36,322 nt of DNA, taken from assembly GCA_001769835.1 (NCBI GenBank), contig MEPR01000002.1, positions 4,221-40,542 of the forward strand. Reading direction: 5' to 3'. This document shows, piece after piece, positions 20,100-36,322 of this stretch. A model generated the notes under the pieces. The model saw nothing but the letters and a program-made list of their open reading frames with translations. It had not been told where the DNA came from and ran no database searches. This stretch comes from Bdellovibrionales bacterium GWB1_55_8 (lineage in GTDB: Bacteria; Bdellovibrionota; UBA1018). The stretch's first letter is position 1. Each line of letters starts with the position of its first letter. Made by a program: the position numbers and the translations under genes.

Positions 20100-21215
20100 T
20101 CAGAGCACCGAAATACTATAGGTGTGCCCGGTCCCATCCGCTTCCGTGTAGGAAAGGCCGGACGCGGCTGCTCGCTTGAACACGCTGGTATTGAAATACC
20201 CCTCCCCGCTGGAGCTGCTTCCGTAGTTTTTCATGGTGTAGGTTCCGTCACCATTATCCGTGAACGTCTGAACAGGGGTCACGAAACCGTTGAATCCGGT
20301 CGTCGTTGTGCTGTCATAGTACGAGCGCGTGAAGCCCCCGAAATACTGGCCTGACGAGGTGAACATCAGTCCGACCGTACCGAGGAATCCGTCGGATGAT
20401 GTGAGCCGGTACCGTTCGATCGTCGGTGTCCCCGGATCAATCGTTCCGGCGACATCCAGATAATTCACCGAAACGTAGGTGGTCGTGGGCGCATCGGGAT
20501 AGGTATCAAAGCTCGGATTGCCGGCGAAAGCCGCACCACTCGCCGCCGTTCCGCTCGCCCCGTTTCCGAAATGAGCGATGTCGCGCACATCGAAATAAAG
20601 CTTCACATTCACTTCCTCGCCTTCCGCAACCGTCACAGGCAGAGGCAGCGGGTAGCGCTTGCCGCATCCGCTGAAGTAGGCCGTGGTCTCAGCATAAAGC
20701 CCCACGTCACTTGTAAGTTCGCCGCTTCCTGCTTGAGTGTACAAGGTCGTACCCCCGCCGGCCGGATCTGTGGTGCCAGTCGCTTTGATTTTCCCCTGGT
20801 ACTTGCCCTCGCTCTTGCAAGTGGCGATCGACACGCTGTCATAAGTACCGGCCCCGATGTCTTTCGCGCCCGCACCCGTCAGAAGATTCTGCAGGGCTTC
20901 GCCACCGGTGAGTTCCACCAGGCAACCATCATTGGAGTCTGCCGCGCATTCGTAAACCACGCCTGTGTCTCCAGTACTGCTTTCGAGGGTAATTGAGCGA
21001 ATCGGCACCTTGAGCGAATCAACAGTAATTCCGGTGTTCACATCGATACCGGCGAACAGCATCTGAGCATCCACGTTCATCAGCGCGGGGGCTGAAATGG
21101 ACCCGCTCACGCGAAGAAGCTGAGGGGTCACTTTCGCGTCGCCCTTCCCGCAGCCGGTCAAAGCTGCGGACGCGATAATCAAAGATAAGAAACAGAAATT
21201 CACTTTGCGGGTCAT
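20100..21215 (-). CDS. Secreted lipoprotein, unknown function
   Basis: The 371-residue product has a lipoprotein signal (MTRKVNFCFLSL, then ALTGC with the acylated Cys at residue 22). The mature protein is rich in Thr, Ser, Gly, Ala and Asp and predicted mainly beta, typical of exported surface proteins of this group. Four cysteines in the first half (YECAADSNDGC, ATCKSEG, SGCGKRYP) may form disulfides. The C-terminal part is rich in Tyr, Phe and Gly (GGFTRSYYDSTTTTGFNGF, DNGDGTYTMKNYG). I do not recognise a domain family. GGAGGATCA precedes the ATG. It has a strong terminator of its own and a 172-nt upstream gap, so it is probably a monocistronic, separately controlled gene. Confidence 0.8.
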   Translation of the reverse strand: MTRKVNFCFLSLIIASAALTGCGKGDAKVTPQLLRVSGSISAPALMNVDAQMLFAGIDVNTGITVDSLKVPIRSITLESSTGDTGVVYECAADSNDGCLVELTGGEALQNLLTGAGAKDIGAGTYDSVSIATCKSEGKYQGKIKATGTTDPAGGGTTLYTQAGSGELTSDVGLYAETTAYFSGCGKRYPLPLPVTVAEGEEVNVKLYFDVRDIAHFGNGASGTAASGAAFAGNPSFDTYPDAPTTTYVSVNYLDVAGTIDPGTPTIERYRLTSSDGFLGTVGLMFTSSGQYFGGFTRSYYDSTTTTGFNGFVTPVQTFTDNGDGTYTMKNYGSSSSGEGYFNTSVFKRAAASGLSYTEADGTGHTYSISVL

Positions 21216-21387: not shown

Positions 21388-22860
21388 TCAAAGTTCGAAT
21401 TCCGGCGCGCGCTTGTAACGACTCGGGTTGATGCGATGTTTTTTGATCAGTCCGTAGACTTCAGTCCTTGACTTGGATGCCAGACGCGCGGCCTCCGCGA
21501 TATTTCCTTTGGCTGCAGCCAATATCCTTTCCAGGTAGCTGCGTTCAAAAGTGCTCTTTGCCTCGCCAAAGGTGGGCAACTCCCCTTCCGGCTGACCTAT
21601 CATCGGTGGTGCGATTGAATCAACAGCTTCCGACGCCGGTTGATGAAGCTCGGCCTCGCTCTGCTTTTCAGAAGCGCGCATTTTCTCCGGAAACAGATCC
21701 GAGGCCGTCATGACGGCTCCGTGACCCAGCACAAGTCCCCGCTCCATGCGGTTCTGCAGCTCCCGGACGTTTCCCGGCCACTCGTGAGCGAGAAGCGCTG
21801 TTTGCGCGGACGGCGAGAGCCCGTCAAAGCGCTTGCCGAGGCGTTCGCCATACTGCTTGCCAAATAGAGAGGCAAGCAAGAGAACGTCGCGCGGGCGGCT
21901 TCTCAGCGGCGGGATCATCAGCGGAATGACATGCAATCGGTAGAAAAGGTCCTGACGAAAGCGCCCCACCGCCACTTCTTCATCGAGCTTCCGGTGGGTT
22001 GCGGCGATCAGGCGCACATTCACGGGAATCGGGTGCACGCCGCCAAGCGGGACAATTTCCTTCTCCTGAATGACGCGGAGAAGCTTGGCCTGAATACTGG
22101 GTGATGCGTCCCCGATCTCGTCGATGAAAAGAGTTCCCTCGTCCGCACGGACAAAAAGCCCCTGCTTGTTGTCGCGAGCATCGGTGAATGCGCCACGGAC
22201 ATAACCGAAAAGCTCGGCCTCCACGAGGTTGTCGGGTACCGCAGCGCAGTTGAACGCAATGAAGGGCCCTTTGGATCTTGGCCCGCATTGGTGCAAAGCA
22301 CGCGCGACCACTTCCTTGCCGGTCCCGGTTTCGCCATGAATCAGAACATTGCTGGTGACGCTCGCGGCGACGGCGATCTGCTTGAGCAGCGGTTCAAGCG
22401 AAGGATCCCGGGTTTTGAAAATACTTCGGATGTCCTCGGGGCTTGAATGTCGCTTCAGCATTCGGAGTTCGCGCTTCAGGCGAAACGATTCAACGGCCCG
22501 AACGAGCTGGGATTCCAGCTCCCCGTCCTGAAAGGGTTTCCGAATATAGCCGTTTGCACCGATATTGAACGCCTTCACCGCCGAATCGAGCTCGCCATGG
22601 GCGGTGATCATGAAAACAGGGATCTCCTGGTCGATCTCGCGCAGCTTTCGCAGCACATCCACGCCGTCGTGCTCGCCTAACCGGATATCCAGGAGCACGG
22701 CCATGAACTCTTCGCGCGAAAAGGCTGCGAGCGCGGCGTCGGGGGTCGTGCAAGCCCGTATCGAGAAACCCTGGTTTTCAAGCAGCAGGCCGAGCACATC
22801 GCTCACCTGCTCGTCATCATCGACCAAAAGCACCCAATCCAAAGACTCACGCCCGTTCAC
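21388..22860 (-). CDS. Sigma54-dependent response regulator, GlrR/QseF type
   Basis: This 490-residue activator has three parts. The receiver domain (residues 8-120) has acidic Asp14/Asp15, phospho-acceptor Asp58, Thr86 and Lys108. The AAA+ domain (about 150-380) has Walker A GETGTGKE at 176-183 and Walker B TLFIDEIGD. A C-terminal Fis-type DNA-binding helix-turn-helix follows. From memory, the C-terminal stretch LPTFGEAKSTFERSYLERIL, then AKGNIAEAARLASKSRTEVY, closely resembles E. coli GlrR (QseF). The sigma54-contacting loop reads GAFTDA (223-228) instead of the usual GAFTGA. Translation starts at GTG, overlapping the stop of the lipoprotein gene (GTGA). Kinase, lipoprotein and regulator form one coupled unit. 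Its target promoters are unknown; no convincing sigma54 site was found by eye. Confidence 0.92.
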   Translation of the reverse strand: MNGRESLDWVLLVDDDEQVSDVLGLLLENQGFSIRACTTPDAALAAFSREEFMAVLLDIRLGEHDGVDVLRKLREIDQEIPVFMITAHGELDSAVKAFNIGANGYIRKPFQDGELESQLVRAVESFRLKRELRMLKRHSSPEDIRSIFKTRDPSLEPLLKQIAVAASVTSNVLIHGETGTGKEVVARALHQCGPRSKGPFIAFNCAAVPDNLVEAELFGYVRGAFTDARDNKQGLFVRADEGTLFIDEIGDASPSIQAKLLRVIQEKEIVPLGGVHPIPVNVRLIAATHRKLDEEVAVGRFRQDLFYRLHVIPLMIPPLRSRPRDVLLLASLFGKQYGERLGKRFDGLSPSAQTALLAHEWPGNVRELQNRMERGLVLGHGAVMTASDLFPEKMRASEKQSEAELHQPASEAVDSIAPPMIGQPEGELPTFGEAKSTFERSYLERILAAAKGNIAEAARLASKSRTEVYGLIKKHRINPSRYKRAPEFEL

Positions 22861-23216
22861 TTCTGCATCCCCCGTGGATCCGCGACATCAATACTCTTCA
22901 AGGCTTCAAGCTGGAGACTCAGGCGGTCGCATCGCGTCTGATAATGGTGTTCAGCCCGAATCAGGTCTTCCAGCAATTTACGAGACAGCTCCACCTTGGG
23001 TCCCTTGGATTTCTCCAATGCTGCGGCAAGTCCCAGCAAAGCGTCCGTCCGCGCGCTGTCCAACTGTGCATTTCCAGCTGACGACGAGGGGATGGGCACA
23101 ACCCTTTTATCAGCCGAAGCGCTTTCCTCAGGAAGCTCCGAACGGACCGTGATCGTCGCACAACCTGAAGCGACGCCGAGGCTGGCCACTACAACAAACC
23201 TCGCCAGGATGCTCAT
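22857..23216 (-). CDS. Small lipoprotein of the two-component operon, QseG position
   Basis: The 119-residue product has a short lipoprotein signal, MSILARFVVVASLGVASGC, with the acylated Cys at residue 19. After a polar linker, residues 50-110 are helical and charged (KVELSRKLLEDLIRAEHHYQ). It overlaps both neighbours by 4 nt, between kinase and regulator. In enterobacteria that place is held by qseG (yfhG), an outer-membrane lipoprotein that binds the periplasmic part of the kinase QseE/GlrK and is needed for its activity. Sequence similarity to QseG is not obvious to me, so the assignment rests on position, size and lipobox. Confidence 0.8.
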   Translation of the reverse strand: MSILARFVVVASLGVASGCATITVRSELPEESASADKRVVPIPSSSAGNAQLDSARTDALLGLAAALEKSKGPKVELSRKLLEDLIRAEHHYQTRCDRLSLQLEALKSIDVADPRGMQK

Positions 23217-24610
23217 CCGTGTCCCCCTCCCACAAAGCTCGCAGCTCCTGACAGTCTCTGTGTTTTGGGCAGGCTGATCCGGATTCTGGTATGCCCCGAT
23301 CCCGAAAGCGCCGATACCGCACCCTGATGCGCTTCGACGACTTTCTTGACGACGTGAAGCCCTACCCCCATGCCCTGCTGCTTCAGGGAATTCGCACCCC
23401 GATAAAAACGATCAAAAATTTTGGGAAGCTCATCGTGCGGAATATCCGCGCCGGCGTTCATCACCTCGATCTCCACGTTCGGACTCGGCACTTCGTTCGT
23501 GATCATGACATCAACGATGGAAGACTCTCTGCCGTATTTGATCGCGTTCAGGAGAAGGTTCACGAACGCCTGAACGATTCCTTCCCAGTGAAAAGACATG
23601 AAGACGAGCTCCGGAGCGAGCAGACGCACGCTGATGCTCTTCCTCTCGGCGATCGGACGGATTTCATCGATAGCCGTCTGAATCGCAGCCGCGATATTTC
23701 TCCGCGAGAAATCCCTCTCAAGAATCCCGGACTCGGTGCGGGACAGATTGAGCAGATTATTGATCATGAATTCCAGTCGCTTTGAAGCTATCAGACACGC
23801 GGAAAGACATTTCTTCTGTGATTCGGCCGAGAGTTTCTTTTCCTCGGAGGCAAGAAGTGAAAGCCCCTCTTTCAGTGCGGTCATGGGATTTCTAATCTCG
23901 TGCGATATCGTGGCGAGAAAATCGTTCTTCGCCTGATCCAGCGTTTCGAGGCGCGCGGCCATGGAGTTAAAGTCCTGAGCGATCTCCTTGAGTTCACTCA
24001 CGCCGTTTTCCTTCATGCGGCACGCCAGCTCCCCGTCCCGAATCCGCGCCGTCGCGTCGCGAAGACGCCGCAGCGGATGAAGGAGTCCCTGATAGAGAAG
24101 AAGGATAAGCCAGGCCGTGATGACGATCGACAATACAAGCGCCACCGTCATCACGCGAAGCAATCCGGCGGCGACTTCGCGGGCATCGCGGAGGGCTGCC
24201 GCTTTTTCGGAGATCAGCATCTCCTGGGCACGCTGGATATGGGCTTCCGTCAACCCGCCGTTTGCCGCCTCCTTCGCTATGATATCGAACCCGGGCCATA
24301 CCTCAGTCACTTCCCTGATGATACGGGCTTCGAGTACCCCGTACTTCGCGAACAACTCGCCGTACGCGACATCCTCAGTGATTTCCCACTTTTTCTGGGC
24401 CTGCTGCTTGGCCGTGAACGCAGCATCGAGCTGAAAAAGCATTTGCTGCAGCGGAATATCCCTTTCCAGGAGCGCCTTGCTCCCTTCGATATGAACTCGC
24501 GCGACCGTATTGGCCCGCACGCCGAGCATGACCGTAAGGGCGATCAGCGATACCGAAATCAGAAGTGCATTGGCTTTAAGACCAGAGGGGTACAACAAAC
24601 GGAAACGCAT
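23213..24610 (-). CDS. HAMP-containing sensor histidine kinase, GlrK/QseE type
   Basis: This 465-residue inner-membrane kinase has TM1 near residues 13-31, a periplasmic helical sensor of about 120 residues, TM2 near 153-173, a HAMP linker (HPLRRLRDATARIRDGELA), the dimerisation/phospho-acceptor domain with His237 in FLATISHEIRNPMTALKEGL, and a HATPase domain with N-box VNLLLNAIKYGRE, FDRFYRG and GMGVGLHVVKK. The H-box followed by ALKEGLSLL resembles QseE/GlrK. It should phosphorylate the sigma54 regulator encoded two genes downstream. The ATG lacks a clear ribosome site. It follows the gliding-type operon after 56 nt with no visible terminator, so it may share that transcript; a TATAAA near 24650 lacks a fitting -35. 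Confidence 0.92.
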   Translation of the reverse strand: MRFRLLYPSGLKANALLISVSLIALTVMLGVRANTVARVHIEGSKALLERDIPLQQMLFQLDAAFTAKQQAQKKWEITEDVAYGELFAKYGVLEARIIREVTEVWPGFDIIAKEAANGGLTEAHIQRAQEMLISEKAAALRDAREVAAGLLRVMTVALVLSIVITAWLILLLYQGLLHPLRRLRDATARIRDGELACRMKENGVSELKEIAQDFNSMAARLETLDQAKNDFLATISHEIRNPMTALKEGLSLLASEEKKLSAESQKKCLSACLIASKRLEFMINNLLNLSRTESGILERDFSRRNIAAAIQTAIDEIRPIAERKSISVRLLAPELVFMSFHWEGIVQAFVNLLLNAIKYGRESSIVDVMITNEVPSPNVEIEVMNAGADIPHDELPKIFDRFYRGANSLKQQGMGVGLHVVKKVVEAHQGAVSALSGSGHTRIRISLPKTQRLSGAASFVGGGHG

Positions 24611-24666: not shown

Positions 24667-26538
24667 TTAACTCCTATTCTTCTCAACCATGGATTTCTTG
24701 ATCGCAAGGTACTTGTCCTTGTTTGTGCAGTTATTAAATAGATTGGATTGAAAGGCACCGAGCTCATCCTCCCATACTTCCGTCCACGCGTCGGATCCGA
24801 TCGGTGCCTTGCCCCAGTTCCAGGTCTTCGCGGCCACCGCGCGGCTTCGGTCGTCCGAGAATTTCTTCACGATGCCCTTGTAATCGGGATGTGCGTTCTG
24901 CCAGATGATGTCCTGGCTGGCGCCGTCAAAGATCTCGACCTCGATCAGGCGGTTATTCTCGGCGACTTCCTCGAGGCCCCCGAGCATACGGACGCTCCGC
25001 CTGGCGAGTTCCCTTGCGATTCTGTCGGTTGCACGCTTCCTGAGCTCCGTGCCCGCCGATTCATGGTTAGCGGCAAGCGCTCGCCATACAGGTCCGGCCG
25101 CCTGGAGTCGACGGTAGTGAACAAGGTTCGCCAGGAATTTCCGGATCTCGTCCTTCAGCGCCGACGCCTTTTTTCCGTTGGCCCGCTCGGACTTGAGACG
25201 CGCGACCAGCACCTGTCCCTCCCGGCGGATTCCTTCAGCCATTCGCTTTTTCTCCCGGGCTCCAGCGTGGTTCACCCGCCTCACTGCCAGGGCCTCGTCT
25301 TGAAGGAGATTCAACTCAGCCTGCGCCGAAATGAACACCGGCGATCGCACCCATTCGCTGGCGACGCGATCCGGGACAACGCCCTTCTGTTTTTTCAGGA
25401 AAGCGATCGCGGCCGGATACAGATCGTGCCCGGCCAGATTGTTTTTGCCGCGCCATTCCTTCAGCCACCGGTAAGACATTTCATAATCCTTGCGGAACTG
25501 GTTGATTGCGCGAAGAGCTTCCGGATACTGGCAGAGTTCGTTCATGGACATCGCAAGCACCATGGGCGTTTCAGGAGCGAAAACGCGCCTGAGCCCGCCC
25601 GATTGCAAGGCAATGGCCGCCCCGATCGCCTCTCCATACTTTCGATCCGCAAGAGCGCTCCATGCGAGCTCCGAAAGCGCGTATGGTAAATCATTCGAGG
25701 ACTTTGCGACGAGCTTGAGCTGCCGACTCGCCTGATCGTACTTCTTCAGCGCGTAGTGGGCACGCGCTGCGAGAAGTCGCGCCTGATCCTCGTGAGGAAC
25801 AAGCGCTTCAACGCGGGATGTAAGCTGGCTCTGCAGAGACAGAAAACGTTCCATCTCCGCCGCCGTACCACGCTCATCGCCCTCAAGTCCGGCCCATATT
25901 CCCAGGGAGAATGCCTCGTAGGCTCCGCCTCCGCGAAGCAGCGCGACTGTCGCGCGAATCTCGTCCTTGGGCCGCTCAAGCTGCACCTGCTGCTTGAGCA
26001 GCAGGCCCGCTGTTTCCCAGAGTGCTTTGCGTGAGAACCGGTCCTCGAAGACAGAGAGGAGTTCCGAGATCCTTCTTGAGCTTTCGTTCGGAAGCTCAAG
26101 GGCGGTATAACGCTGCACCAGCGTTGCCATGCACCGCAAGGCCGCAAACTGGAGCACCGGCGGCTCAGCAGGCTCCCGCTTTCTCAATGCGATCGCTGAA
26201 AAGCCGGCGTGAGCGGAATGCGGCAACCCGGCAGCAAGCAATGTGCGAGAGAGCCAGTAATCAGCAAACGATCTGCCGGTTCCTGCGAGCGTATCCCGTC
26301 GAAACGAGATCGATTCCGAGAGGCTCCGGGCGACCGACCCGGTTCCAGCGATGAACGCGGCAAATTCATCCCGCGCTTCCTTCGGAATTTCACTCGTGAA
26401 GATCCATTGTTCACCGGCCTCGCAGGGCCGACTCACGGAAAGTCCACGAGCCCCGTTCCTCGCAACCTGAGGGGCCGCCTCTGCCGCGGCCGGAAACAGC
26501 AGCAGCAGAGGGAGCAGGCCATTCAAGAGTCGTTTCAT
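24667..26538 (-). CDS. Exported helical (TPR-like) protein, GltC-like by position
   Basis: The 623-residue protein has a cleavable signal peptide (MKRLLNGLLPLLLLFPAAAEAA). The mature part is mostly amphipathic helices, including TPR-like units around residues 255-335 (AHYALKKYDQASRQLKLVAK, ALSELAWSALADRKYGEAIG). A basic helical stretch (about 425-535) is followed by a tryptophan-rich end (WNWGKAPIGSDAWTEVWEDE) that also carries the only C-terminal Cys. I infer a periplasmic scaffold. Myxococcus GltC is a periplasmic TPR protein of the gliding machine, and this gene lies directly after an outer-membrane barrel gene, so a GltC-like role is plausible but not shown by sequence alone. It overlaps the barrel gene by 4 nt and has GGAGGGGA before its ATG. 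Confidence 0.75.
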   Translation of the reverse strand: MKRLLNGLLPLLLLFPAAAEAAPQVARNGARGLSVSRPCEAGEQWIFTSEIPKEARDEFAAFIAGTGSVARSLSESISFRRDTLAGTGRSFADYWLSRTLLAAGLPHSAHAGFSAIALRKREPAEPPVLQFAALRCMATLVQRYTALELPNESSRRISELLSVFEDRFSRKALWETAGLLLKQQVQLERPKDEIRATVALLRGGGAYEAFSLGIWAGLEGDERGTAAEMERFLSLQSQLTSRVEALVPHEDQARLLAARAHYALKKYDQASRQLKLVAKSSNDLPYALSELAWSALADRKYGEAIGAAIALQSGGLRRVFAPETPMVLAMSMNELCQYPEALRAINQFRKDYEMSYRWLKEWRGKNNLAGHDLYPAAIAFLKKQKGVVPDRVASEWVRSPVFISAQAELNLLQDEALAVRRVNHAGAREKKRMAEGIRREGQVLVARLKSERANGKKASALKDEIRKFLANLVHYRRLQAAGPVWRALAANHESAGTELRKRATDRIARELARRSVRMLGGLEEVAENNRLIEVEIFDGASQDIIWQNAHPDYKGIVKKFSDDRSRAVAAKTWNWGKAPIGSDAWTEVWEDELGAFQSNLFNNCTNKDKYLAIKKSMVEKNRS

Positions 26539-27281
26539 GATTCGTCCCCTCCGCCACCGAAGAGCATTGAAATCCCGAGCGTGAGTGTGTTCGTCCAGTT
26601 CATGCGTTCATCCACCACCTGCCCGAGCTTGGTAGGAATCACCTTTTCCAGCAGATTCTCCCGATAAGCCATCAGCCGATAATCGACTACAAGAGATAGA
26701 CTCTTTGACAGATAGATCTGCTGCCCCACCCCCAGCAGCGGAGTGATGTAATTGCCGGACTCGGTCTGTGTGACGCCGGCACCTCCGAGCAGGTGAAGAT
26801 CATAATAAATGATCTTCTTGCCCAGAAAACTCAGCTTGCCATAGAGAATGCTGCCAGCGGCCTCGGCTCCGTAAAAGGCACGCGGTTCGTTGGTATTCGT
26901 GGTGGCACCCCGGGTCTCCTGGAACGTGATCAGCGCATTCGAAGGCGACACCTGCGATTTCCACCCCAGAAGACGCAAACCGAGGTACTCGCTGAGATGA
27001 AAACCGACCGATCCGCCGAAACTCTGGACACTCAGGAAAGGATCCGAGCTGAGCATTCCGAAGAATGAACCCACTTCGAGTTTCCCTGCCTTCGTATAGA
27101 GACGGTTCTGAACCACACCGAGTTCGGATTCATCGCCCCGGTTCCAGTACTTTTCCTTGATCGCGTCCACCTGCACTTTCTCGTTCTGGTCAGCACGGGC
27201 CGCGGCGGGTATGAACTGCGCCGCGACGATCAGACAAAATAGCGATGCATATCCCATATTTCTGAACAACCTGTTTTTCAA
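26535..27281 (-). CDS. Outer-membrane beta-barrel protein, GltA/GltB/GltH-like
   Basis: The 248-residue precursor has a signal peptide (basic KNRLFRN, hydrophobic ASLFCLIVAAQFIPAAARA). The rest shows alternating polar/hydrophobic strands (GKLEVGSFFGMLSSDPFLS, SFGGSVGFHLSEYLGLRLLG, KSLSLVVDYRLMAYREN) and ends in TLTLGISMLFGGG, typical of the 'outer membrane beta-barrel' family of myxobacteria and Bdellovibrio that includes Glt barrels. I set the start at TTG ending at 27281: GGAGG (27287-27291) lies 5 nt upstream and the signal peptide gains its basic start. A longer frame up to 27389 would overlap the previous gene by over 100 nt. It starts 1 nt after the GltG-like gene. Confidence 0.8.
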   Translation of the reverse strand: MKNRLFRNMGYASLFCLIVAAQFIPAAARADQNEKVQVDAIKEKYWNRGDESELGVVQNRLYTKAGKLEVGSFFGMLSSDPFLSVQSFGGSVGFHLSEYLGLRLLGWKSQVSPSNALITFQETRGATTNTNEPRAFYGAEAAGSILYGKLSFLGKKIIYYDLHLLGGAGVTQTESGNYITPLLGVGQQIYLSKSLSLVVDYRLMAYRENLLEKVIPTKLGQVVDERMNWTNTLTLGISMLFGGGGDES

Positions 27282-27282
27282 C

Positions 27283-28764
27283 TTAACCTCCAAGAGTTTT
27301 GAAAATGAATGGATAGGTGACACCAACGTCGATACCGCCTTTGGTGTTTGGAAATTTCCAAGCACTGAGACGCCTGACGATGCAGTCATCGAGCTTTGAA
27401 TCGGTGAGAGTCGAGGACCGGACCGCCGCCACTTTCACTTTGCCGGAAGCACCGATCGTGAAGCCGAGCACGAGCTTGCCCTCGAGGTCAGGGAACCGCA
27501 GCATGGAGGCCTCGTAGCAATAGCGAACCTCGCTCATGTGCCGGTGAATGACTTTCCCAACCTCGTCCTTGGTGAGCCCCTCCTCGACCGAGGATCCGGT
27601 CGAATCCATGGCGATCATAGAACGTCCCTGACCCGTGACGTTCGCATGCTCCCCATGGCCGTAACCGACGCCTTTGCCGCTACCCTGTCCGCCTCCGCCT
27701 ATCGCCGCAATCCGCGTTCCGCTGCCTATTCCTGGCCCGGTGATCGGGGCCGTTGAATGCAGGGCCGGCGAACTGGAATTGAAGAGCTTGCGCGCGTTCG
27801 CAGCCCTGTCCGCTCCGGGTGCATACTCGGACTTGGCCAGAAGCTGGGTCATTCCGCCCCGGAAGAGCCCCTTCATTGCTGACTGCAGTTTGTTCCCCTG
27901 GAACGCGGGTGCCGCATCGGAACGCTTCGGTTCAGAGGTTTTTGCCACTTTAGCAGACGCCCCCGACGACATGGCCGCCGGCCTTAGCCTGGCCGGTTTT
28001 GCGACGGTTATTTCCGGTATGGACACCACCTGCATTTCAGGAAGTGGCGCATCTGTTTTAGGCCAGAGAAAACTGACAAGAAGAAATGCAGCCGCCATGG
28101 ATCCTGAGGCAAGAGCATGCTCCCGGATTGCCGGCCACGGATTCGCGCGCCCGGCCATTGAAGGTACGAGTTGCACCTCTTTCGGGCGATTGAAATTCCA
28201 GTCATAAACTCCGAGACGAATACAGATCCCGGCGAGTTCCTCCGCGGTAAGAATGACGGCCTGACTGGGGCGAAGCTCATGAACCGCCTTATGCGTGATC
28301 ATCTTGATGGCACTGGAGGACAGGACAGTCAGCACATACTCAGAACCGGATCGGCCCAGCCGGAATACCGGATCACCTTCCGAGAACCCGATGTAGGCTA
28401 GCCCGAGGTCCACGGAATCGAGCGTCCATCCACGCGCATTATGATAGACCCGGAATTTGTTTCCGTCGCATCCCTGATCCGCTCGCGTCGCCGCGGGCAG
28501 TGACTCGACCGTCTTCAGCCGGATTACCACGCCCTCCAACTCAATCTGCGCGCCTGATTCCAGTTTCGCCTGTTCGAAAAGATACGAGCGATCCTCGGTC
28601 GAAACCGGATCCTTTGTGGCGGTCCTCAGCCGGACGCCTTCTGCGCTGCGCTCGAGAAACCAGCGCCTGGACGTGCCGAGCGATATCGCCTTCTGACCGG
28701 ACCAAACGCGGCGGCGCGTGGCACCTCCCGCCGAAATAGTCAGCACAATGGATCTTCCTTTCAT
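27283..28764 (-). CDS. GltG-like inner-membrane protein with AgmX/PglI C-terminal domain
   Basis: This 493-residue protein has a cytoplasmic N-terminal half (residues 1-210) with two beta-rich, FHA-like segments, one membrane helix (about 217-234), and a long Ala/Ser/Gly-rich periplasmic linker (about 240-390). It ends in a TonB-C-like domain of the AgmX/PglI type (about 394-493: GLTKDEVGKVIHRHMSEVRY, LVLGFTIGASGKVKVAAVRS, AWKFPNTKGGIDVGVTYPF). Two cysteines in that domain (RYCYE and DDCIVRR) match its conserved pair. This order is that of GltG, a core part of the gliding and spore-coat machines of Myxococcus, which links the proton-driven stators to the outer membrane. Phosphothreonine-binding residues of a true FHA domain are not evident. 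It overlaps the small gene upstream by 4 nt. Confidence 0.85.
   Translation of the reverse strand: MKGRSIVLTISAGGATRRRVWSGQKAISLGTSRRWFLERSAEGVRLRTATKDPVSTEDRSYLFEQAKLESGAQIELEGVVIRLKTVESLPAATRADQGCDGNKFRVYHNARGWTLDSVDLGLAYIGFSEGDPVFRLGRSGSEYVLTVLSSSAIKMITHKAVHELRPSQAVILTAEELAGICIRLGVYDWNFNRPKEVQLVPSMAGRANPWPAIREHALASGSMAAAFLLVSFLWPKTDAPLPEMQVVSIPEITVAKPARLRPAAMSSGASAKVAKTSEPKRSDAAPAFQGNKLQSAMKGLFRGGMTQLLAKSEYAPGADRAANARKLFNSSSPALHSTAPITGPGIGSGTRIAAIGGGGQGSGKGVGYGHGEHANVTGQGRSMIAMDSTGSSVEEGLTKDEVGKVIHRHMSEVRYCYEASMLRFPDLEGKLVLGFTIGASGKVKVAAVRSSTLTDSKLDDCIVRRLSAWKFPNTKGGIDVGVTYPFIFKTLGG
27287..27291 (-). promoter_or_regulatory. Ribosome site deciding a TTG start (beta-barrel gene)
   Basis: GGAGG on the minus strand lies inside the last codons of the GltG-like gene, 5 nt before TTG (27279-27281). 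The next in-frame ATG (8 codons on) lacks such a site and would remove the basic part of the signal peptide. Confidence 0.7.
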
Positions 28765-29087
28765 AGCGAGTACCTCATTTCTTTCAGGGTGTTTTGTGTC
28801 TCTTGACGGAAGCCAGCGCGCTTCCGATACAGGTGCGACCGCGTGCCATTGCGCTCCCGCTCGGAGATCTGGCTCAATGAATCGAGAGGACGTTTGTTCA
28901 TTCCTTCCACGAGTTCGTCATCAAATTCGATCACCTTGTGTCGTTTCGAACTCGTCAGACCCGACATGCTCGTCGCGACCGGCTCCTTCACGGGAACATT
29001 CGCCAGTGCCGATGAATAGGTTCCGAATGTGAAGGCGACTCCAAAAACAATCGCACTGAGCCGAAGGAAACGTTTTTCCGATGTCAT
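28761..29087 (-). CDS. Small exported protein of the gliding-type operon (possibly CglF-like)
   Basis: The 108-residue product has a signal peptide (MTSEKRFLRLSAIVFGVAFT, then SSALA). The mature part of about 78 residues is charged, with an acidic patch KVIEFDDELVEGMNKRPLDS and a basic end HLYRKRAGFRQETQNTLKEM. It has no Cys and no membrane segment, so it should be a soluble periplasmic or outer-membrane-associated protein. Its size, export and place beside glt-like genes recall CglF of Myxococcus, a small gliding-machine protein; that is a guess from context. AGGAGG precedes the ATG. The gene lies 1 nt after the large TPR gene and overlaps the GltG-like gene. Confidence 0.72.
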   Translation of the reverse strand: MTSEKRFLRLSAIVFGVAFTFGTYSSALANVPVKEPVATSMSGLTSSKRHKVIEFDDELVEGMNKRPLDSLSQISERERNGTRSHLYRKRAGFRQETQNTLKEMRYSL

Positions 29088-29088
29088 G

Positions 29089-32000
29089 TTAACCTCCTGC
29101 TTTCGCGGCCGGGCGCTTCGGCTGATCCGTCTGAGCGATGGATTCGGGATCCCCTCCCAGCTCCTTCATGAGTTCTCCTGCTCGGTCGTGAGCCAGACTG
29201 TTCTGATAATGCTCGAGAAGAAGCCGGTTCACGTTACGGCGAATCCTCTTGTCCATCCCCCCTCGGGCACCTGCGAGTTCGGCCAGAGCCTCGGCCTGAG
29301 CTCCCACTCCGGCCAGGGTGTAGGCCCGCAGCAAAGCGAGTACCGTGGGAGAGACAAGCTTCTTTTCTTTCGCGTACTGAACGAGGTAGGCGGCTTCCGC
29401 CCAGCGCCTCTGCCTCGCAGCGTGGTACCAGCGGGCCTTGAGCGCATTTACCGCGCACCGTGAGGAGTCCTTGCATTGACCGGATTCGTTTCCCCAATCA
29501 CCGTCGGGATCGATCGTGCGAAGCTGGCCCGGATCAAGCGGCTCGGGCTTCCGAGTGGCAACTTTTGGAAGGAGCCTCGCCATTCGCTTCGGGTCCGCGT
29601 GCAGATAGGGTTGCGCGATTTCGTCAAAGGCGTCGTCCTCGATCGCGGAGGAGGACGCCAGCTCGAATGCTTTCGCACGCAGCGAATCCGACTTCTTCTC
29701 GAAGGGTTCGGCCATTGCCGGGTCCGCACCGCGCAAAGACCGCAGGCTGCGCGCCGTATCGGCATAGAGATCCGCAAGCTCGTTCGTGATGCTCGCACGT
29801 ATGCGAGCCCAGGGCAGCTTCGCCGCCTCCATCCCCGCATTTTCAATTTCACGAATCGCTTCCACGCGCCTTACGAGGTAAGCTTCACGTGCCATCAGTG
29901 GCGCGACCGAGCGGATGGACCGCCGGTTCATCGCTATCGCCCGTGGAATACTCAACGTCACCGAAGGCAGGATGTACGTCTTCGCAAGCGAATCAAGTGC
30001 ATCCCAATGCTTGCGAAGAATCCGGATGGCCACATGACGGTCCCGGAACGCAAGATTGCGAGCTCCCTCGAGAGCCAGCGCAGCCCAGAGTGAGCGATAC
30101 TCCACAGCGCCATGGCGTGCACGCGAGAAGGCTTTCGCCGTGAAGTCCGGACCGCGTCCCTGACTTTCGAAGATCTTGAGAACTTCATACCGCTGGCACT
30201 CCCCAGATACAGCCGGCGTACAGACGGACTTGTCCGCGAGCACCCGATTCAGAAGCTTGGAATCCCCGGAGATCCAGGCATACGCGAGGGTCTTTCGCCT
30301 GAGATCATTCCGCTGTTTATCGCCCAGCTTCGCGATTGCCGGAGGCATGGCGAGATACTGTTGAAAATCGCGCGCCGCCTCCGTGAACTCGAGCTGTTCC
30401 TCGCGTACACCACCATGGGCCAGCAGGGCGGATGCGCCGGCTTCCGAATTCGGCGCCGTTCGCATGAGCTGAGAGAAGTAGCCGAGCGCTTCCGATGTGT
30501 CCTTTGCGGCCAAGGCGGCGTGACCCGCGATCGCGAGGCTTTCGCTGTGGCGTTTACTTTCAGGGTAAGTCGCCCGGAATCTCTCGGACTTTCCTATTGC
30601 CAGTTTGTAATCGCCGGCGCGATAGGCCGCCTCGACTGTCTTGAACTCGGCATCGGCGGCGAGGCCGTAAAGTCGCGTGGCGAATTCCGTCCCCTTCCAT
30701 TCCTTGATTGCCAGCAACTTCGCCGAAAGTTCCTGCAGCTTCTCCCACTCGGCACTAGCGACATAAGTATCCACCAGCAACGTTGCCGACGGGGTCGCGT
30801 ACTTCGATTTCGGAAATTCAAGCGCGAATCCCAGCAAGCGTTTCAATGAATCCTGAATGTCGCCGTTCAGGTAGATGGCGCGATTGGCCTCGAAGTAGAA
30901 GCTGTCGACTGACATCGCGGTTCTCTTCGCATGATCGTCCACCCACCCGATCCACTCCACGAGATCCTTGTCGAGGTCCTTGCGAGGTGATTCCTGGATG
31001 GAACGCGCTTTCAGATCCTTCGGAATGAGCCCGCGTTTCCGAAGGTGTTCATAACGGCTTCCGATCGCCCGAAGACTCGCTTCCTTTTCCCAGCCTTTAT
31101 TGAGAACCCACCGATAATGTTCGGTGGCCTGCTCATACTGGCCGATCTCGAAAAGGCTCTCAGCAAGGTTGTAGTGAACCTTGGCGACCCGCGGATCCTC
31201 CTCATCCACGAGTCGCGTGAAACAGTCGTAAATACCAGCGAGAGCCGTGGTCAGTAGAACAACGCCATCCGCATTCTTGTTTTTGCTGATCAGCTGCTGA
31301 AGCTGTTTGGCGGCATCAAGAAGCAGCCGCTCAGCACGCTCCACGGATTCCTTCGAACTCTTCGGATTCCGGTACGACACCAGCTCGCGAGCCGTGTCCA
31401 CCAGCTGGATGTACTGACGTTTGTTCAGCTGATCCTCGTACGCGATCACGATCAACTCGAGGTTTTCGGGGCGCTCCGGCTCGCGGCTCAGGACCAGTGT
31501 CTTCCACTTCCCGAGCTCTTCCACATGTCCATGTGCCCTGAGCAGCTTGGCGTAGCGAACGATGACCTTGCCGAGAATCGCGCCGGACTCCAGGCGTTTG
31601 AAGTACGTATAAGCTTCGTCCACTCCGAAGTGCGAGAGCCGCTGCTCATACCCCTGCAGAAAGAAAAGCGCTGCATCGAGAATCGCGTTTTCCCGGAGCG
31701 CTTCATCGGACCGCGACTGTCCGCGACCCGAATAGTAACGAATGGTGCGTTCCGCATAGGAAAGCGCTCGCGGAACGTCCTTCAGATTGTACTGGCACCA
31801 CGCCTGCCGGTAGAGCGCATGCGGGTAATGAGGATTTGACCGGTCTTTTTCAACCGGGCGCAGATACTCCGCTGCCTGATCCCATTGATTCTTGTCCATT
31901 GCGATCTCGGCGAGTGCCATGTAAGCGGAGATCGTGTCCTCCGATTTCGGAAAATTACTTACGAGATGAAGGAAGTCCGCACGCGCGAGCGAGGGGCTCC

Positions 32001-32457
32001 CCGACTCCGAGTGAGACCTTCCTTTCAGGAAATAGGCGCGCGGCAGGTCGGACGATCTGGGAAAACGCTGAATCAGTTGCCCGAACGTCTTCGTGGACTG
32101 AATCAGGTACTGTTTGTGATCCTGCAAGCCGGCCTTGCCCCCCCCCTGAGCCGGGGTTCCATGAGCGATGCGGAACTGCATCGAACCTGCGCGTCGTTGG
32201 GCTTCCCCCAATTTGAACAGGAGCGCGGACTCCTGCTCCTTGCCGCGATTTTTCCCGATCAGCTCCTGAAGGCTGCGAATCGCGTTGAGCTGGGAATCCA
32301 GCGCGGCCCGGTCGACACGTCGTTCCTGAACTTCGAACGACGAGTACGTAGGCCTGGATTCCGCCGCATTTTTTTCCTCTCCCGCTACACCAGCTGGAAC
32401 AAGCGTGAGGCCCACGGCAACCAGCGCTGAAACCAGGAACACTCTTTTATGATTCAA
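29089..32457 (-). CDS. Large periplasmic TPR protein of the gliding-type machine
   Basis: The 1122-residue product starts with a signal peptide (NHKRVFLVSALVAVGLTLVP) and is then nearly all helical, with many tetratricopeptide-like pairs, for example PRAYFLKGRSHSESGSPSLA, ALYRQAWCQYNLKDVPRALS and YNLAESLFEIGQYEQATEHY. It resembles the periplasmic TPR scaffolds of the Agl/Glt systems (GltD/GltE/AgmK-type); I cannot say which. I choose TTG ending at 32457 because AGGAG lies 7 nt upstream and the signal peptide then begins MNHKR. ATG ending at 32472 is the main alternative but lacks a good site. A run of nine G on the coding strand (32138-32146) lies about 100 codons in. The gene follows the AglS-like gene after 57 nt. 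Confidence 0.85.
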   Translation of the reverse strand: MNHKRVFLVSALVAVGLTLVPAGVAGEEKNAAESRPTYSSFEVQERRVDRAALDSQLNAIRSLQELIGKNRGKEQESALLFKLGEAQRRAGSMQFRIAHGTPAQGGGKAGLQDHKQYLIQSTKTFGQLIQRFPRSSDLPRAYFLKGRSHSESGSPSLARADFLHLVSNFPKSEDTISAYMALAEIAMDKNQWDQAAEYLRPVEKDRSNPHYPHALYRQAWCQYNLKDVPRALSYAERTIRYYSGRGQSRSDEALRENAILDAALFFLQGYEQRLSHFGVDEAYTYFKRLESGAILGKVIVRYAKLLRAHGHVEELGKWKTLVLSREPERPENLELIVIAYEDQLNKRQYIQLVDTARELVSYRNPKSSKESVERAERLLLDAAKQLQQLISKNKNADGVVLLTTALAGIYDCFTRLVDEEDPRVAKVHYNLAESLFEIGQYEQATEHYRWVLNKGWEKEASLRAIGSRYEHLRKRGLIPKDLKARSIQESPRKDLDKDLVEWIGWVDDHAKRTAMSVDSFYFEANRAIYLNGDIQDSLKRLLGFALEFPKSKYATPSATLLVDTYVASAEWEKLQELSAKLLAIKEWKGTEFATRLYGLAADAEFKTVEAAYRAGDYKLAIGKSERFRATYPESKRHSESLAIAGHAALAAKDTSEALGYFSQLMRTAPNSEAGASALLAHGGVREEQLEFTEAARDFQQYLAMPPAIAKLGDKQRNDLRRKTLAYAWISGDSKLLNRVLADKSVCTPAVSGECQRYEVLKIFESQGRGPDFTAKAFSRARHGAVEYRSLWAALALEGARNLAFRDRHVAIRILRKHWDALDSLAKTYILPSVTLSIPRAIAMNRRSIRSVAPLMAREAYLVRRVEAIREIENAGMEAAKLPWARIRASITNELADLYADTARSLRSLRGADPAMAEPFEKKSDSLRAKAFELASSSAIEDDAFDEIAQPYLHADPKRMARLLPKVATRKPEPLDPGQLRTIDPDGDWGNESGQCKDSSRCAVNALKARWYHAARQRRWAEAAYLVQYAKEKKLVSPTVLALLRAYTLAGVGAQAEALAELAGARGGMDKRIRRNVNRLLLEHYQNSLAHDRAGELMKELGGDPESIAQTDQPKRPAAKAGG
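32138..32146 (-). repeat. Run of nine G on coding strand inside the TPR gene
   Basis: Nine consecutive C on the plus strand, so G9 in the mRNA, encode the Gly-Gly-Gly of GTPAQGGGKAG near residue 104. A change of one base would shift the frame and cut the protein to about a tenth of its length, as in phase-variable genes. Confidence 0.85.
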
Positions 32458-32464
32458 GGGACTT

Positions 32465-32470
32465 CTCCTC
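32465..32470 (-). promoter_or_regulatory. Ribosome site deciding a TTG start (TPR gene)
   Basis: GAGGAG on the minus strand stands 7 nt before TTG (32455-32457). The site overlaps the codons after the competing ATG at 32472, which itself has only GGTTAAG upstream. Confidence 0.6.
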
Positions 32471-32514
32471 ATCTTAACCAAGATGCCCAACGTGACTATG
32501 TTGCTAATCGGGCT

Positions 32515-32982
32515 TCAGTTCGGGTTCACTACCGCCAACTTGAAATCCGTGTACCCACTGACGGCAGCGGAAGCCAAAGCCGCTTTGATCGTGACGTACG
32601 GTGCCCGTCGATCCGCGAGTACGATGACCTGAGATCCGGGGCGTTCGCGAATCTCCGTATCCAGGGCCGCCGCCAGGGTCTTTGAGGCTCCCACGGCCGA
32701 CAGATCGCCCGAGGAGAACTCAAAATCCTTGATTGCCGCGACCTGCGCCCCGTTCACGCGGACCGCCCCTTCCGCGATCTCGAGCTTCACTCCCTCGGCC
32801 GGGCCGCTGACTGTCGCCGCCAGAGGCATCACCAGCCCAGGCGACGGAGTCACGTCGATTGCGCCCGTACCGTAAGTCTTCAGCAGAAAAACCAGGATGA
32901 TCATGAAAATGTCCGCCATCGAGGTGATCTGCAGGGACATCTGACCGTCCATGCGTGGCTTCTTCACAAATGATTTCCGCAA
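32515..32982 (-). CDS. ExbD/TolR-family stator protein, AglS-like
   Basis: The 155-residue protein has a short cytoplasmic N-terminus, one membrane helix (about residues 20-37, SMADIFMIILVFLLKTYG) with the conserved proton-carrying Asp at position 24, and a periplasmic domain ending in a typical ExbD/TolR fold (SQVIVLADRRAPYVTIKAAL, then SGYTDFKLAVV). With the adjacent ExbB/TolQ-type gene and a second ExbD-type gene it would form a proton-driven motor like AglRQS, where AglQ and AglS each give one acidic helix. Translation starts at TTG with GGAGG (32989-32993) 6 nt upstream; the next ATG (residue 11) has no such site. Confidence 0.88.
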   Translation of the reverse strand: MRKSFVKKPRMDGQMSLQITSMADIFMIILVFLLKTYGTGAIDVTPSPGLVMPLAATVSGPAEGVKLEIAEGAVRVNGAQVAAIKDFEFSSGDLSAVGASKTLAAALDTEIRERPGSQVIVLADRRAPYVTIKAALASAAVSGYTDFKLAVVNPN

Positions 32983-32988
32983 GCAAGA

Positions 32989-32993
32989 CCTCC
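32989..32993 (-). promoter_or_regulatory. Ribosome site deciding a TTG start (AglS-like gene)
   Basis: GGAGG on the minus strand, 6 nt before TTG (32980-32982), is the only good site near the start of this gene. Confidence 0.65.
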
Positions 32994-33000
32994 AGTTGAC

Positions 33001-33489
33001 TTAAAATCCGTCCAGCGCCACACCAGGAATCGATTTTCGAATCGTCTCGATCGAACTGATGACTTCCTGGTAAGGAACCTTGTTTTCAGCCGTTAAACGC
33101 GTTTTTTCGAGCGAGGGCCACTTAGCCTTGATCTCGGCTACCTTCTGACCCATCGCCGGAATGTCGTAGCCGCCGTTCTTCAACGGCGGCAGCGTGATCT
33201 CGCGCGCTTCCTTCCCCGTTAGCTGCATCCCGATGGCGCCGTCCGGACTGAGCTCGACCTTCAGCCGCACCTCTGGATCCGTGACCGCGAGAGGTGCCGC
33301 TCCCCCCGCCGCTATGCCTGCATCGAGAATCCCGATGGACGCAAATGCGGCGGAGATCATGACGAATGCGATCAGGACAACGAAGCAGTCGATGATCGGG
33401 GCAAGATTCAGATCGAAGTCCTGCTCCTGTTTACGGCCCTCGCCGCCCACGCCGGGCGACCAGGCTCGTGAAGTCTCGCCGTCCATCAT
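33001..33489 (-). CDS. ExbD/TolR-family stator protein, AglQ-like
   Basis: The 162-residue protein has a polar cytoplasmic N-terminus (residues 1-24), a membrane helix (about 28-50) carrying the conserved Asp34 in NLAPIIDCFVVLIAF, and a periplasmic domain that includes LSPDGAIGMQLTGKE and ends in KVPYQEVISSIETIRKSIPG. The Asp in the helix is the expected proton carrier. It differs clearly from the second ExbD-type protein next door, which fits the AglQ/AglS pair of Myxococcus rather than a recent duplication. It overlaps the AglR-like gene by 4 nt, with GGAG 8 nt before the ATG, so the two stator proteins are translationally coupled. Confidence 0.9.
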   Translation of the reverse strand: MMDGETSRAWSPGVGGEGRKQEQDFDLNLAPIIDCFVVLIAFVMISAAFASIGILDAGIAAGGAAPLAVTDPEVRLKVELSPDGAIGMQLTGKEAREITLPPLKNGGYDIPAMGQKVAEIKAKWPSLEKTRLTAENKVPYQEVISSIETIRKSIPGVALDGF

Positions 33490-34154
33490 ACGATCCGCTC
33501 CAACGTGCTGACCGCATCGTTTTCAACCGCATAGAAACGTTGTTTGAGCATGTCGAGCGTTCGCATCGCGGCACGGTCCACCTCGCCCACAAGTTTGTTG
33601 CTCCGGCTGATCAGGAAACTGAAGGCGACCATGCAGGGAATCGCGACGCCCAGGCCCATGATCGTCGCGTTCATCGCCGTCGAAATACCGGCTGCAAGCA
33701 ACGCTGATTTCTGCTGCGGATCCGCGGCACCTACCGCGTTGAACGAATGGATCAGACCGGCGATCGTTCCGAAGAGGCCAAGAAGCGTGGCCACGTTTGC
33801 GATGGTCGCCAGGAAGGACGTCCGGCCCTGGATCGCCTCCGTAACCTTGCCGACACTGATGCCAAGCCCGCTTTCAATCAGGTTTTCCGGCTGATGAGCC
33901 CGAAGAAGCGCCTGTTTCGTGACTTGCGCCGCCGGCTTGTCATGATAGCGATCGCAGACGGCGACCGCCTCGGCGATCTTGCCCTTCAGAACCAGGTCAT
34001 TCACGCGCTCGAAGAAGCTGTCGGCGTCCTGCATCGGATACTGCTTGAGCAGCGCCTTGGACCGCTCGAAGATGATCGAAATCGCGAACGCCGCTGCGGC
34101 GAGAATCGGCGATACGTGCCAGAAGTTCGTTTGGATAAATTCAATAAAGTTCAT
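33486..34154 (-). CDS. MotA/TolQ/ExbB proton-channel protein, AglR-like
   Basis: The 222-residue inner-membrane protein has the TolQ/ExbB layout: TM1 near residues 13-30, a cytoplasmic helical loop (31-112), TM2 near 117-138 (ATIANVATLLGLFGTIAGLI) and TM3 near 155-182 (GISTAMNATIMGLGVAIPCM), followed by a cytoplasmic helix. The GLFGTIAGLIHSF and LLAAGISTAMNATIMGLGVA stretches are the family hallmarks. A pentamer of this type around two acidic helices forms a proton-driven rotary motor. Followed by two ExbD-type genes and glt-like genes, it corresponds to AglR rather than TolQ or ExbB; no tolA, tolB, pal or tonB is nearby. AAGGAAGGA precedes the ATG. Confidence 0.92.
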   Translation of the reverse strand: MNFIEFIQTNFWHVSPILAAAAFAISIIFERSKALLKQYPMQDADSFFERVNDLVLKGKIAEAVAVCDRYHDKPAAQVTKQALLRAHQPENLIESGLGISVGKVTEAIQGRTSFLATIANVATLLGLFGTIAGLIHSFNAVGAADPQQKSALLAAGISTAMNATIMGLGVAIPCMVAFSFLISRSNKLVGEVDRAAMRTLDMLKQRFYAVENDAVSTLERIV

Positions 34155-34177
34155 TTTGAGTCCTTCCTTTTCTTGGT

Positions 34178-35740
34178 TCAGTAGAGGGTTTTTGGTTGGT
34201 AATTCACGAGGATCCGATCCTGCGATGAAAGCGTCAGGACAAAATCCATGTCGTTCAGATAGAGCGTGGTTCCTTCGACGGTGTAGGTATCAGCAGGGAG
34301 TACCGTTTTGGTGCCGTCGACGTGAATGATCGTCACGATCATGTCTTCAGTGCCCGTCGGAGGACGCTTGAGTTCATACTCGCTGCTGCGATGAACAATG
34401 GCGCGACCTACCCGATCGAGGAGCATGCTGTAATCGTCATCGGCGATGTTCATGGCGAACGATCCGTTACCGACCTGTTCGGAGAACTCCAGATAACGAT
34501 CGGCGTGGTCCACTGCCACATTGCCGGCATTTCCAGCCGCCAGGTCATCGGACGCCCGCAATTGCTGAAGCTCCTGGATCGCGGAGCCTGTCAAGGGAAC
34601 CACGGGAATGACGATGTAAGTACCGGATAATCCCGCGCCACCCGTCGTGCCATCCAGGGCCGCGAAGAACGTATCCACCTGGTTCTTCACCTGGCTGACC
34701 GGTATGAGCTTGCTTGAGTCAGCGCAGCTGCTCAGGCGGTAACTGTATCCATCGACAGTTTTCAGAGGGCAGTCGGACGAATAGCCGGTGAACGGATTGG
34801 CGCCTGCCGCAGGTATAAACATGCTCTGATCGTCTTCATCCGCGAGAATCATGAAGACACGCTGCGAGCCCTTGCGAAAGAACGCGGTGTCACTCGTCTC
34901 GTTGTCCTGAAGAAACTGCTGAAGCGAAGCGAGGCCGCGTTCCGACCCGGCGCCGGAAGTCCCGACGCTCGCATTGATCATGAAATCCGAAACCAGTGTC
35001 TGGGAGCCGGATTGAGTGGAAAGAATAGGACGCCCGGAGTGAATCGTATCGTTCTGAACAGTGTTCACGCATTGGGTGATCGCCGTCTCACCACCGGAAG
35101 GACTCAGGCACTGGGACGGACCGGAATACCGGGTCTGATCATCGCGGATCCGGCACTGACTGGCTCCGTAGAAAAAGTAAGCGTGATTTTCGGTGCAGAG
35201 AGCGGCGATCGGGCCGTCATGCACACCTGGCAACAGACGCGCATAGTTTCGACCCCAGGCCGGCACCTGGTCGTTCCAGGTGATTCCCTTTTTGAAGGCA
35301 CCGGTTTGGGGATTCACCAGACTGGGATTCCAATCAGGGTTCACGAAGGTGCTCAGCCGGCTCTGGATATACGGTGAAGTCCAGTTTTCCGTTCCGCCGA
35401 TCGTGGTCTTGAGATAGGCGCCGAAGGCCGGATGAGCCATGTAGGAATCCGTGGTGATCACACCGACTCGGATGTCCCAGTTGGGACGAAGATATTTTTG
35501 CGCGAAAGTCGAAAAGCCGCGTCGCAGGCGGTCCTGTGAGACATCCATACTCGCGGAGTTATCGACGATGAAGAGCAGATCCACTTTGGTGTTGACTTCC
35601 CGGGCCACCGCGAAGGATTCAAGCTGTTGCTCGAGCCGGAAAGAATTCGGTTTCTGCTGAGTGCAGGCCGCGACCAGCAGGATCAGCGGCAGCGTGGCCG
35701 CCAGAAGAGCAAACTGATGCGAAAAAGATCGAGCTTTCAT
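34178..35740 (-). CDS. von Willebrand factor A lipoprotein, CglB-like candidate adhesin
   Basis: The 520-residue product has a lipoprotein signal ending in LVAAC (Cys26). A von Willebrand factor A domain then starts at about residue 52 (KVDLLFIVDNSASMDVSQ), with an intact metal-binding DxSxS motif (Asp60, Ser62, Ser64). Seven or so further cysteines in the middle (SQCRIRDD, SQCLSPSGG, TQCVNTVQ, SSDCPL, SSCADSS) suggest disulfides, as expected outside the cytoplasm. The C-terminal part is beta-rich. In Myxococcus the vWA lipoprotein CglB is an integrin-like outer-membrane adhesin of the gliding complex. The location next to the stator genes makes a CglB-like role attractive; this is inference. 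GAGGAG precedes the ATG, and the gene lies 23 nt before the AglR-like gene. Confidence 0.85.
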   Translation of the reverse strand: MKARSFSHQFALLAATLPLILLVAACTQQKPNSFRLEQQLESFAVAREVNTKVDLLFIVDNSASMDVSQDRLRRGFSTFAQKYLRPNWDIRVGVITTDSYMAHPAFGAYLKTTIGGTENWTSPYIQSRLSTFVNPDWNPSLVNPQTGAFKKGITWNDQVPAWGRNYARLLPGVHDGPIAALCTENHAYFFYGASQCRIRDDQTRYSGPSQCLSPSGGETAITQCVNTVQNDTIHSGRPILSTQSGSQTLVSDFMINASVGTSGAGSERGLASLQQFLQDNETSDTAFFRKGSQRVFMILADEDDQSMFIPAAGANPFTGYSSDCPLKTVDGYSYRLSSCADSSKLIPVSQVKNQVDTFFAALDGTTGGAGLSGTYIVIPVVPLTGSAIQELQQLRASDDLAAGNAGNVAVDHADRYLEFSEQVGNGSFAMNIADDDYSMLLDRVGRAIVHRSSEYELKRPPTGTEDMIVTIIHVDGTKTVLPADTYTVEGTTLYLNDMDFVLTLSSQDRILVNYQPKTLY

Positions 35741-35767
35741 ACCTACTCCTCACCACGCCGCGCGTGA

Positions 35768-36322
35768 TTATTGAAAATTTCTGGCGACCGGCCTGGATTC
35801 CGAGCCGCAACCGTTCGTGCGCTGGGTTGCCGACCATTGTTTGAACAACGTGAGATCCTGCTCTGCCGCGAGCACCTCTCTTAATTCCGCTTCGAGGGCC
35901 CCCGTCGGGTCGATCTCTTCAGCAGCGTCAGCCGGATCCCATTTGGCGATCGGACCGCGAGCAGGTTTTTCCTTTTTCAGTGCGGCACCGATGGCCTCGA
36001 GAAACAGATCCCGCGGAGGCTGGCAGTTTCCCGGACATCTGGCCTTTCCCCGGCAGTACGTAAGACTAACCCGGGAATCCGGCCCGGCGAGCGGGCCAAA
36101 GACGATCCCATCGCGAACGCGTTCAAACGCGGTCACCTCGTCATCCACCCGCAGACACACCGAATTCCAATTCACCCCTGCGAGCTCCTTTGGCTTGCCC
36201 ATCTGAATCAGGTTCCGGTGGGCCGCGCACCTCTGGCGATCAGGATGACCGGCGACCGCTTTATGCCGGTAATTCACACGAGTGCAGCCATCGACCACGA
36301 CGGTCCGGAACGGCGCGGCTAC
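35768..36322 (-). CDS. Cys-containing protein, unknown, 5' end outside the window
   Basis: The frame is open to the right edge of the window: the codons beyond the GTG at 36298 continue as VAAPFRTVVVDGCTRVNYR without a stop. The true start therefore probably lies outside, and at least 184 residues are seen. Cysteines cluster in two places (DGCTRV...RCAAH and TYCRGKARCPGNCQPP), suggesting disulfides or metal binding in an exported protein. The C-terminal half is charged and partly helical (GALEAELREVLAAEQDLTLF). I do not recognise a family. It ends 27 nt before the vWA lipoprotein gene on the same strand and so is probably part of the same operon. Confidence 0.65.
   Translation of the reverse strand, partial: VAAPFRTVVVDGCTRVNYRHKAVAGHPDRQRCAAHRNLIQMGKPKELAGVNWNSVCLRVDDEVTAFERVRDGIVFGPLAGPDSRVSLTYCRGKARCPGNCQPPRDLFLEAIGAALKKEKPARGPIAKWDPADAAEEIDPTGALEAELREVLAAEQDLTLFKQWSATQRTNGCGSESRPVARNFQ

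Follow-up and report, generated by a model that had tools for sequence, protein, structure and literature searches.

The 36,322-nt stretch of DNA from Bdellovibrionales bacterium GWB1_55_8 analyzed here (the window) raises the question of whether a single operon encodes a motor of the Agl/Glt type together with the surface component on which it would act. A sequence-only reading had proposed such a machine in at least nine leftward genes. Nine were found on the - strand, at 24667-35740; that reading had overlooked a tenth, here named U, which lies 5' of them. The features, listed from the 5' end of the operon, are the following:

35768..36322, continuing past the window end, - strand: gene U, 3' part; membrane-anchored, six-cysteine domain
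34178..35740, - strand: vWA/MIDAS lipoprotein, 520 aa; lipobox Cys26, DxSxS; candidate adhesin
33486..34154, - strand: AglR-type MotA/TolQ/ExbB stator, 222 aa; profile match and tree
33001..33489, - strand: AglQ-type ExbD/TolR stator; profile match, conserved membrane Asp34
32515..32982, - strand: AglS-type ExbD/TolR stator; profile match, conserved membrane Asp24
29089..32490, - strand: GltD-like large periplasmic TPR protein, 1133 aa; profile match and conserved order
28761..29087, - strand: GltF/CglF-like small exported protein, 108 aa; CglF match at 20.4 bits (E 4e-4) and conserved position
27283..28764, - strand: GltG-like transmembrane linker, 493 aa; AgmX/PglI C-terminal domain
26535..27257, - strand: outer-membrane beta-barrel (OMP_myx_plus); profile match and conserved order
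24667..26538, - strand: GltC-like TPR-containing protein, 623 aa; profile match and conserved order
23213..24610, - strand: HAMP/HisKA/HATPase histidine kinase, 56 nt downstream of GltC
21388..22860, - strand: NtrC-type sigma-54 response regulator; candidate partner of the histidine kinase

When the likely start of the barrel gene (OMP) is taken, the nine genes are separated by 1-25 nt or joined by one of three 4-nt overlaps (5' to 3': 23 nt between vWA and AglR, a 4-nt overlap with AglQ, 18 nt to AglS, 24 nt to GltD, 1 nt to GltF, and a 4-nt overlap with GltG). The longest OMP reading frame begins at 27389 and would overlap GltG by 107 nt; the internal Met at 27257 is compatible with a signal peptide, gives a protein of the length seen in relatives, and leaves a spacing of about 25 nt. 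OMP in turn overlaps GltC by 4 nt. Motor, barrel, and candidate adhesin likely form one transcription unit; promoter and terminator consensus scans returned no more matches than in shuffled sequences. The histidine kinase gene downstream of GltC is possibly co-transcribed with the operon, and the kinase and the NtrC-type regulator could together provide surface-sensing control. Two near relatives (L097 and L084) likewise have kinase reading frames close to GltC. Between an alcohol dehydrogenase-like gene and the NtrC-type regulator, a 371-aa reading frame (window 20100-21215) has no match in Pfam or NCBIfam.

Profile searches placed the stator, TPR, barrel, and AgmX/PglI domains above their curated cut-offs. 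The AglR-type protein matches MotA_ExbB at 90.2 bits, the two ExbD proteins score 39.7 and 37.6 bits, the barrel is recognized by OMP_myx_plus (86.7 bits; cut-off 60), and approximately the last 93 residues of GltG match the AgmX/PglI C-terminal domain (NF033768, 110.1 bits; cut-off 40). A MotA/TolQ/ExbB stator and two different ExbD stators thus stand in tandem, in a conserved order. The NCBIfam equivalog cut-offs are not reached by GltC (43.7 of 450 bits), GltF (20.4 of 90 with the model of CglF, which is GltF; PMC4488436), or GltG (121.8 of 650), and these proteins are therefore homologues, not proven equivalents. Among the operon proteins, none gives a separate NCBIfam match for GltE, which could be fused or diverged, and none matches GltI, GltJ, or GltK, the GltJ model being reached through the shared tail only. 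The assignment to the Agl/Glt group is based on NCBIfam models and Bdellovibrio paralogues, without M. xanthus sequences.

Since the stator families are homologous and GltG ends in a domain with a distant likeness to TonB (26.8 bits; cut-off 27.1), the unit might alternatively be a Tol/Ton-like envelope or import system that has recruited a vWA protein. However, a 47-protein tree puts the AglR-type sequences on one side of a branch with an SH-aLRT of 100, apart from TolQ/ExbB; this tree came from a quick search, has several long branches, and takes as comparators TolQ and ExbB from E. coli plus the TolQ/ExbB-like proteins encoded by Bdellovibrio and by the present genome, with M. xanthus AglR outside the set. 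The AgmX/PglI model far outscores the TonB model on GltG, in agreement with the domain type that the sequence-only reading had proposed. Moreover, TolQ/ExbB-like genes exist separately elsewhere in this genome, and the unit contains no Pal, TolB, or TonB-dependent receptor. On the stator clade and the domain score, a Tol/Ton identity was rejected, and we regard it as highly improbable. The membrane aspartates of AglQ (D34) and AglS (D24) and the threonines T123 and T164 of AglR are conserved at 93% or more, which fits an ion-driven motor. A third stator class, found in L012 and L147-L161, shares about 40% identity with the window AglR and is preceded in 14 loci by a conserved 110-aa protein.

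The complete order U-vWA-AglR-AglQ-AglS-GltD-GltF-GltG-OMP-GltC recurs in at least ten loci besides the window, all from uncultured Bdellovibrionota (L083, L084, L087, L097, L101, L124, L125, L127, L141, and L144). Two more (L094 and L111) carry the ten-gene order with rearranged ends, and many further loci are cut short by contig ends. The best 80 loci of the contig profile scan were all of Bdellovibrionota type. Because the gene order recurs across so many genomes, chance clustering of the nine genes was rejected. Among near relatives, AglR directly follows vWA in 26 of the 30 loci that hold a vWA homologue, as retrieved by the vWA search. Sampling of other families of the phylum added 40 AglR loci, 17 of which have vWA immediately upstream; this count includes L231 and L248, whose two reading frames overlap beyond the limit of the automatic count, which gave 15. 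A further copy of the machine is divided between two contigs of the same genome, with U-vWA-AglRQS-GltD on C91 (L010) and GltF-GltG-OMP-GltC-GYF on C20 (L019).

Other arrangements were also observed. Many Bdellovibrionota encode, alongside the stators or GltC, a protein with GYF_2 (29.3 bits; cut-off 25.8) and PilZ-like parts (for instance, L019:14572-15099; the Bdellovibrio member is Bd1482), and its gene lies upstream in 30 of the 40 further AglR loci (L231-L270); it is likely a cytoplasmic adaptor or a c-di-GMP input. Seven loci (L108, L113, L114, L121, L123, L187, and L199) place AglRQS-GltG opposite a divergent OMP-GltC-GltD set and have no vWA gene, a layout that probably represents another functional class of machine. 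In four more (L091, L092, L115, and L140), insertions of 1.6-3.3 kb separate GltD from GltF.

The candidate adhesin carries a conserved lipobox cysteine (C26), invariant in alignment A2, and its MIDAS residues D60, S62, and S64 (DxSxS) and D301 are also invariant. Although Pfam recognizes the vWA fold weakly (E 0.04), two observations back the call: DxSxS is invariant, and the predicted structure resembles the vWA domains of integrin-beta and pilus adhesins, in line with the vWA lipoprotein proposed earlier from sequence. The AlphaFold model is confident (pLDDT 86.1, pTM 0.84), and a fold search matched it to integrin-beta headpieces and to the pilus adhesin PitA (E 1e-7 to 1e-5); the whole-chain TM of about 0.3 confines this likeness to the vWA part. 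A sequence search of the PDB with the vWA profile gave weak integrin-beta matches only (E 0.18). The N-terminal part matches the MIDAS adhesin model NF052240 (E 2.5e-11; 43.4 bits against a cut-off of 700).

Gene U begins on contig C2, across a 36-base N-gap from the window end. Clustering of neighboring reading frames in 80 named loci, together with the genome's own paralogues, defined a U family whose genes immediately precede vWA, or AglR in loci that lack vWA, in at least 38 loci, the window included. The protein has one N-terminal hydrophobic segment (lipobox-like in some relatives), a linker that many relatives have in a Pro/Ala-rich form, and a domain in which four cysteines are invariant and two more are nearly invariant or conserved. 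It matches no Pfam or NCBIfam family, and a fold search with the domain of its fairly well predicted structure (pLDDT 81.8) yielded no match at E <= 0.001. U is a conserved, undescribed component of the motor operon.

For a cultured point of reference we used genome G190, which we take to be that of B. bacteriovorus HD100. Its region 1,392,940-1,404,819 (loci L183-L184) encodes a 353-aa MIDAS lipoprotein, a GYF/PilZ-like protein, AglR, AglQ, AglS, GltD, a small protein, GltG, OMP, and GltC. Of the four agl stators, the one in this unit scores best with the window-family AglR model, at 201 bits against 138-157 for the others. The gene order agrees with the published genes Bd1473-Bd1483; judged by sequence and order, the window unit corresponds to that operon and its vWA protein to Bd1483. 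Bd1473-Bd1483 has been annotated as an agl/gliding operon (PMC2797640), with Bd1483 in the gliding cluster, Bd1481 as aglR (PMC2277423), Bd1480 as aglQ (PMC9140294), and Bd1482 as a PilZ protein at the 5' end (PMC3271064). Expression of bd1480 rises on surfaces and falls in mutants unable to glide (PMC9140294). Insertion mutants of aglR (Bd1481) and of Bd1483 reduce thick biofilms less well, with thin-lawn lysis unaffected (PMC2277423); as Bd1483 lies at the 5' end of the operon, its transposon phenotype could be polar. A bd1483 deletion strain already exists and invades prey normally; no gliding test of it was found in that report (PMC11003981).

Taken together, these observations make it reasonably probable that the unit encodes a proton-driven Agl/Glt machine that lets the cell glide over surfaces or prey by moving a MIDAS-type surface adhesin. 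An AglR pentamer with AglQ and AglS would draw on the proton gradient and drive GltG, anchored in the inner membrane, from which force would pass through periplasmic GltD, GltF, and GltC to the outer-membrane barrel. The barrel would display and drag the vWA/MIDAS lipoprotein, which would grip the substrate or prey, so that the cell might glide or move along surfaces. With an inner-membrane anchor in most relatives, a flexible linker, and a disulfide-rich domain, U probably aids the adhesin or its coupling. This proposal draws on the domain matches, gene order, vWA-AglR linkage, stator tree, ion-path and MIDAS residues, and adhesin-like fold, and on the annotation, bd1480 expression, and Bd1481/Bd1483 phenotypes reported for Bdellovibrio (PMC2797640, PMC9140294, PMC2277423). 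Elsewhere, the genome also encodes an MglA-like GTPase that shares 57% identity with its Bdellovibrio counterpart, an expected, if indirect, sign of a polarity-controlled gliding system. Against gliding stand an uncultured organism with no recorded motility, the four Glt proteins without counterparts in the operon and the Glt matches below equivalog cut-offs, and the normal invasion by the bd1483 deletion strain.

The related Nfs machinery, which serves sporulation and not gliding, also counts against that proposal and leads to a different view of the operon, in which the same motor and chain would move a polymer or surface protein (a coat, capsule, or adhesin belt) without propelling the cell. 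Nfs of Myxococcus has the same core, with AglRQS moving the spore-coat polymer (PMC3858216, PMC3169522), and two copies of the machine in one genome suggest specialized roles; however, the stators come with a closely linked vWA adhesin of their own and, within the window, the operon has no genes for polysaccharide assembly next to it, and we consider such transport unlikely. It is also conceivable that the motor works a prey-contact adhesin during entry, bdelloplast movement, or exit rather than in general gliding. Bdellovibrio agl clusters peak at differing predation stages (PMC12546842), predation on biofilms is impaired by insertions in Bd1481 and in Bd1483 (PMC2277423), and Bd0875, a MIDAS adhesin, acts at the interface of invasion (PMC11003981); but invasion proceeds normally when bd1483 is deleted, predation has not been demonstrated for the window's lineage, and a role confined to predation or biofilms seems to us quite improbable.

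Beyond the gliding machine favored here, a broader and decidedly tentative proposal is that the ten-gene unit forms a self-contained focal-adhesion machine with an integrin-like adhesin across the Bdellovibrionota, in which Bd1483 would be the Bdellovibrio gliding adhesin (the CglB counterpart) and U a new motor-adhesin coupler. A 2026 review names the gliding motor, adhesins, and force path of Bdellovibrio as a major open challenge (PMC13104615). The recurrent linkage between motor and MIDAS adhesin and the phenotype shared by Bd1481 and Bd1483 single out one operon and one adhesin as test targets; together with U, this linkage makes the question testable and sharpens it, without adding a new class of machine.

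Compared with known systems, the window shares with the Agl-Glt machinery of M. xanthus (PMC3169522) the AglRQS-type stators, GltG with its AgmX/PglI tail, GltC-, GltD-, and GltF-like proteins, a barrel, and a vWA surface lipoprotein, for which a CglB-like role is presumed. In M. xanthus, the genes are distributed over G1, G2, and M1, with cglB elsewhere, whereas the window holds one operon, a contrast that the sequence-only reading had drawn correctly; GltE, GltI, GltJ, and GltK were not seen in the window operon in this comparison, made by models and not by M. xanthus sequences. Its account of an Agl/Glt-type motor encoded in one likely unit with a barrel and a candidate adhesin also stands, but the implied novelty of the single-operon layout does not: single-region core clusters outside the Deltaproteobacteria and four expanded clusters in Bdellovibrio were described in 2011 by Luciano and colleagues (PMC3169522), and the four agl/glt operons of B. 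bacteriovorus are published (PMC2797640). The MIDAS adhesins Bd0875 and Bd1483 (PMC11003981) share with the window protein a lipobox and a MIDAS domain set inside a domain formed by the N- and C-terminal parts; the window protein differs from this family in its large insertions and its score far under the NF052240 cut-off. Similarly, the genes of motor-linked vWA force transducers (PMC12204202) lie beside TPR, tolQ-like, and paired tolR-like genes, but those proteins are held at the inner membrane by a TolA/TonB-like anchor, whereas the window vWA protein is a lipoprotein. The closest likeness is to Bd1473-Bd1483, with the vWA lipoprotein, AglR, AglQ, AglS, GltD, small exported protein, GltG, OMP, and GltC in the same order; there, the GYF/PilZ-like Bd1482 lies between vWA and AglR and the lipoprotein is shorter, whereas the window instead has U upstream of vWA. 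This kind of operon is known; of note here are the tight linkage of motor and adhesin and the extra component U.
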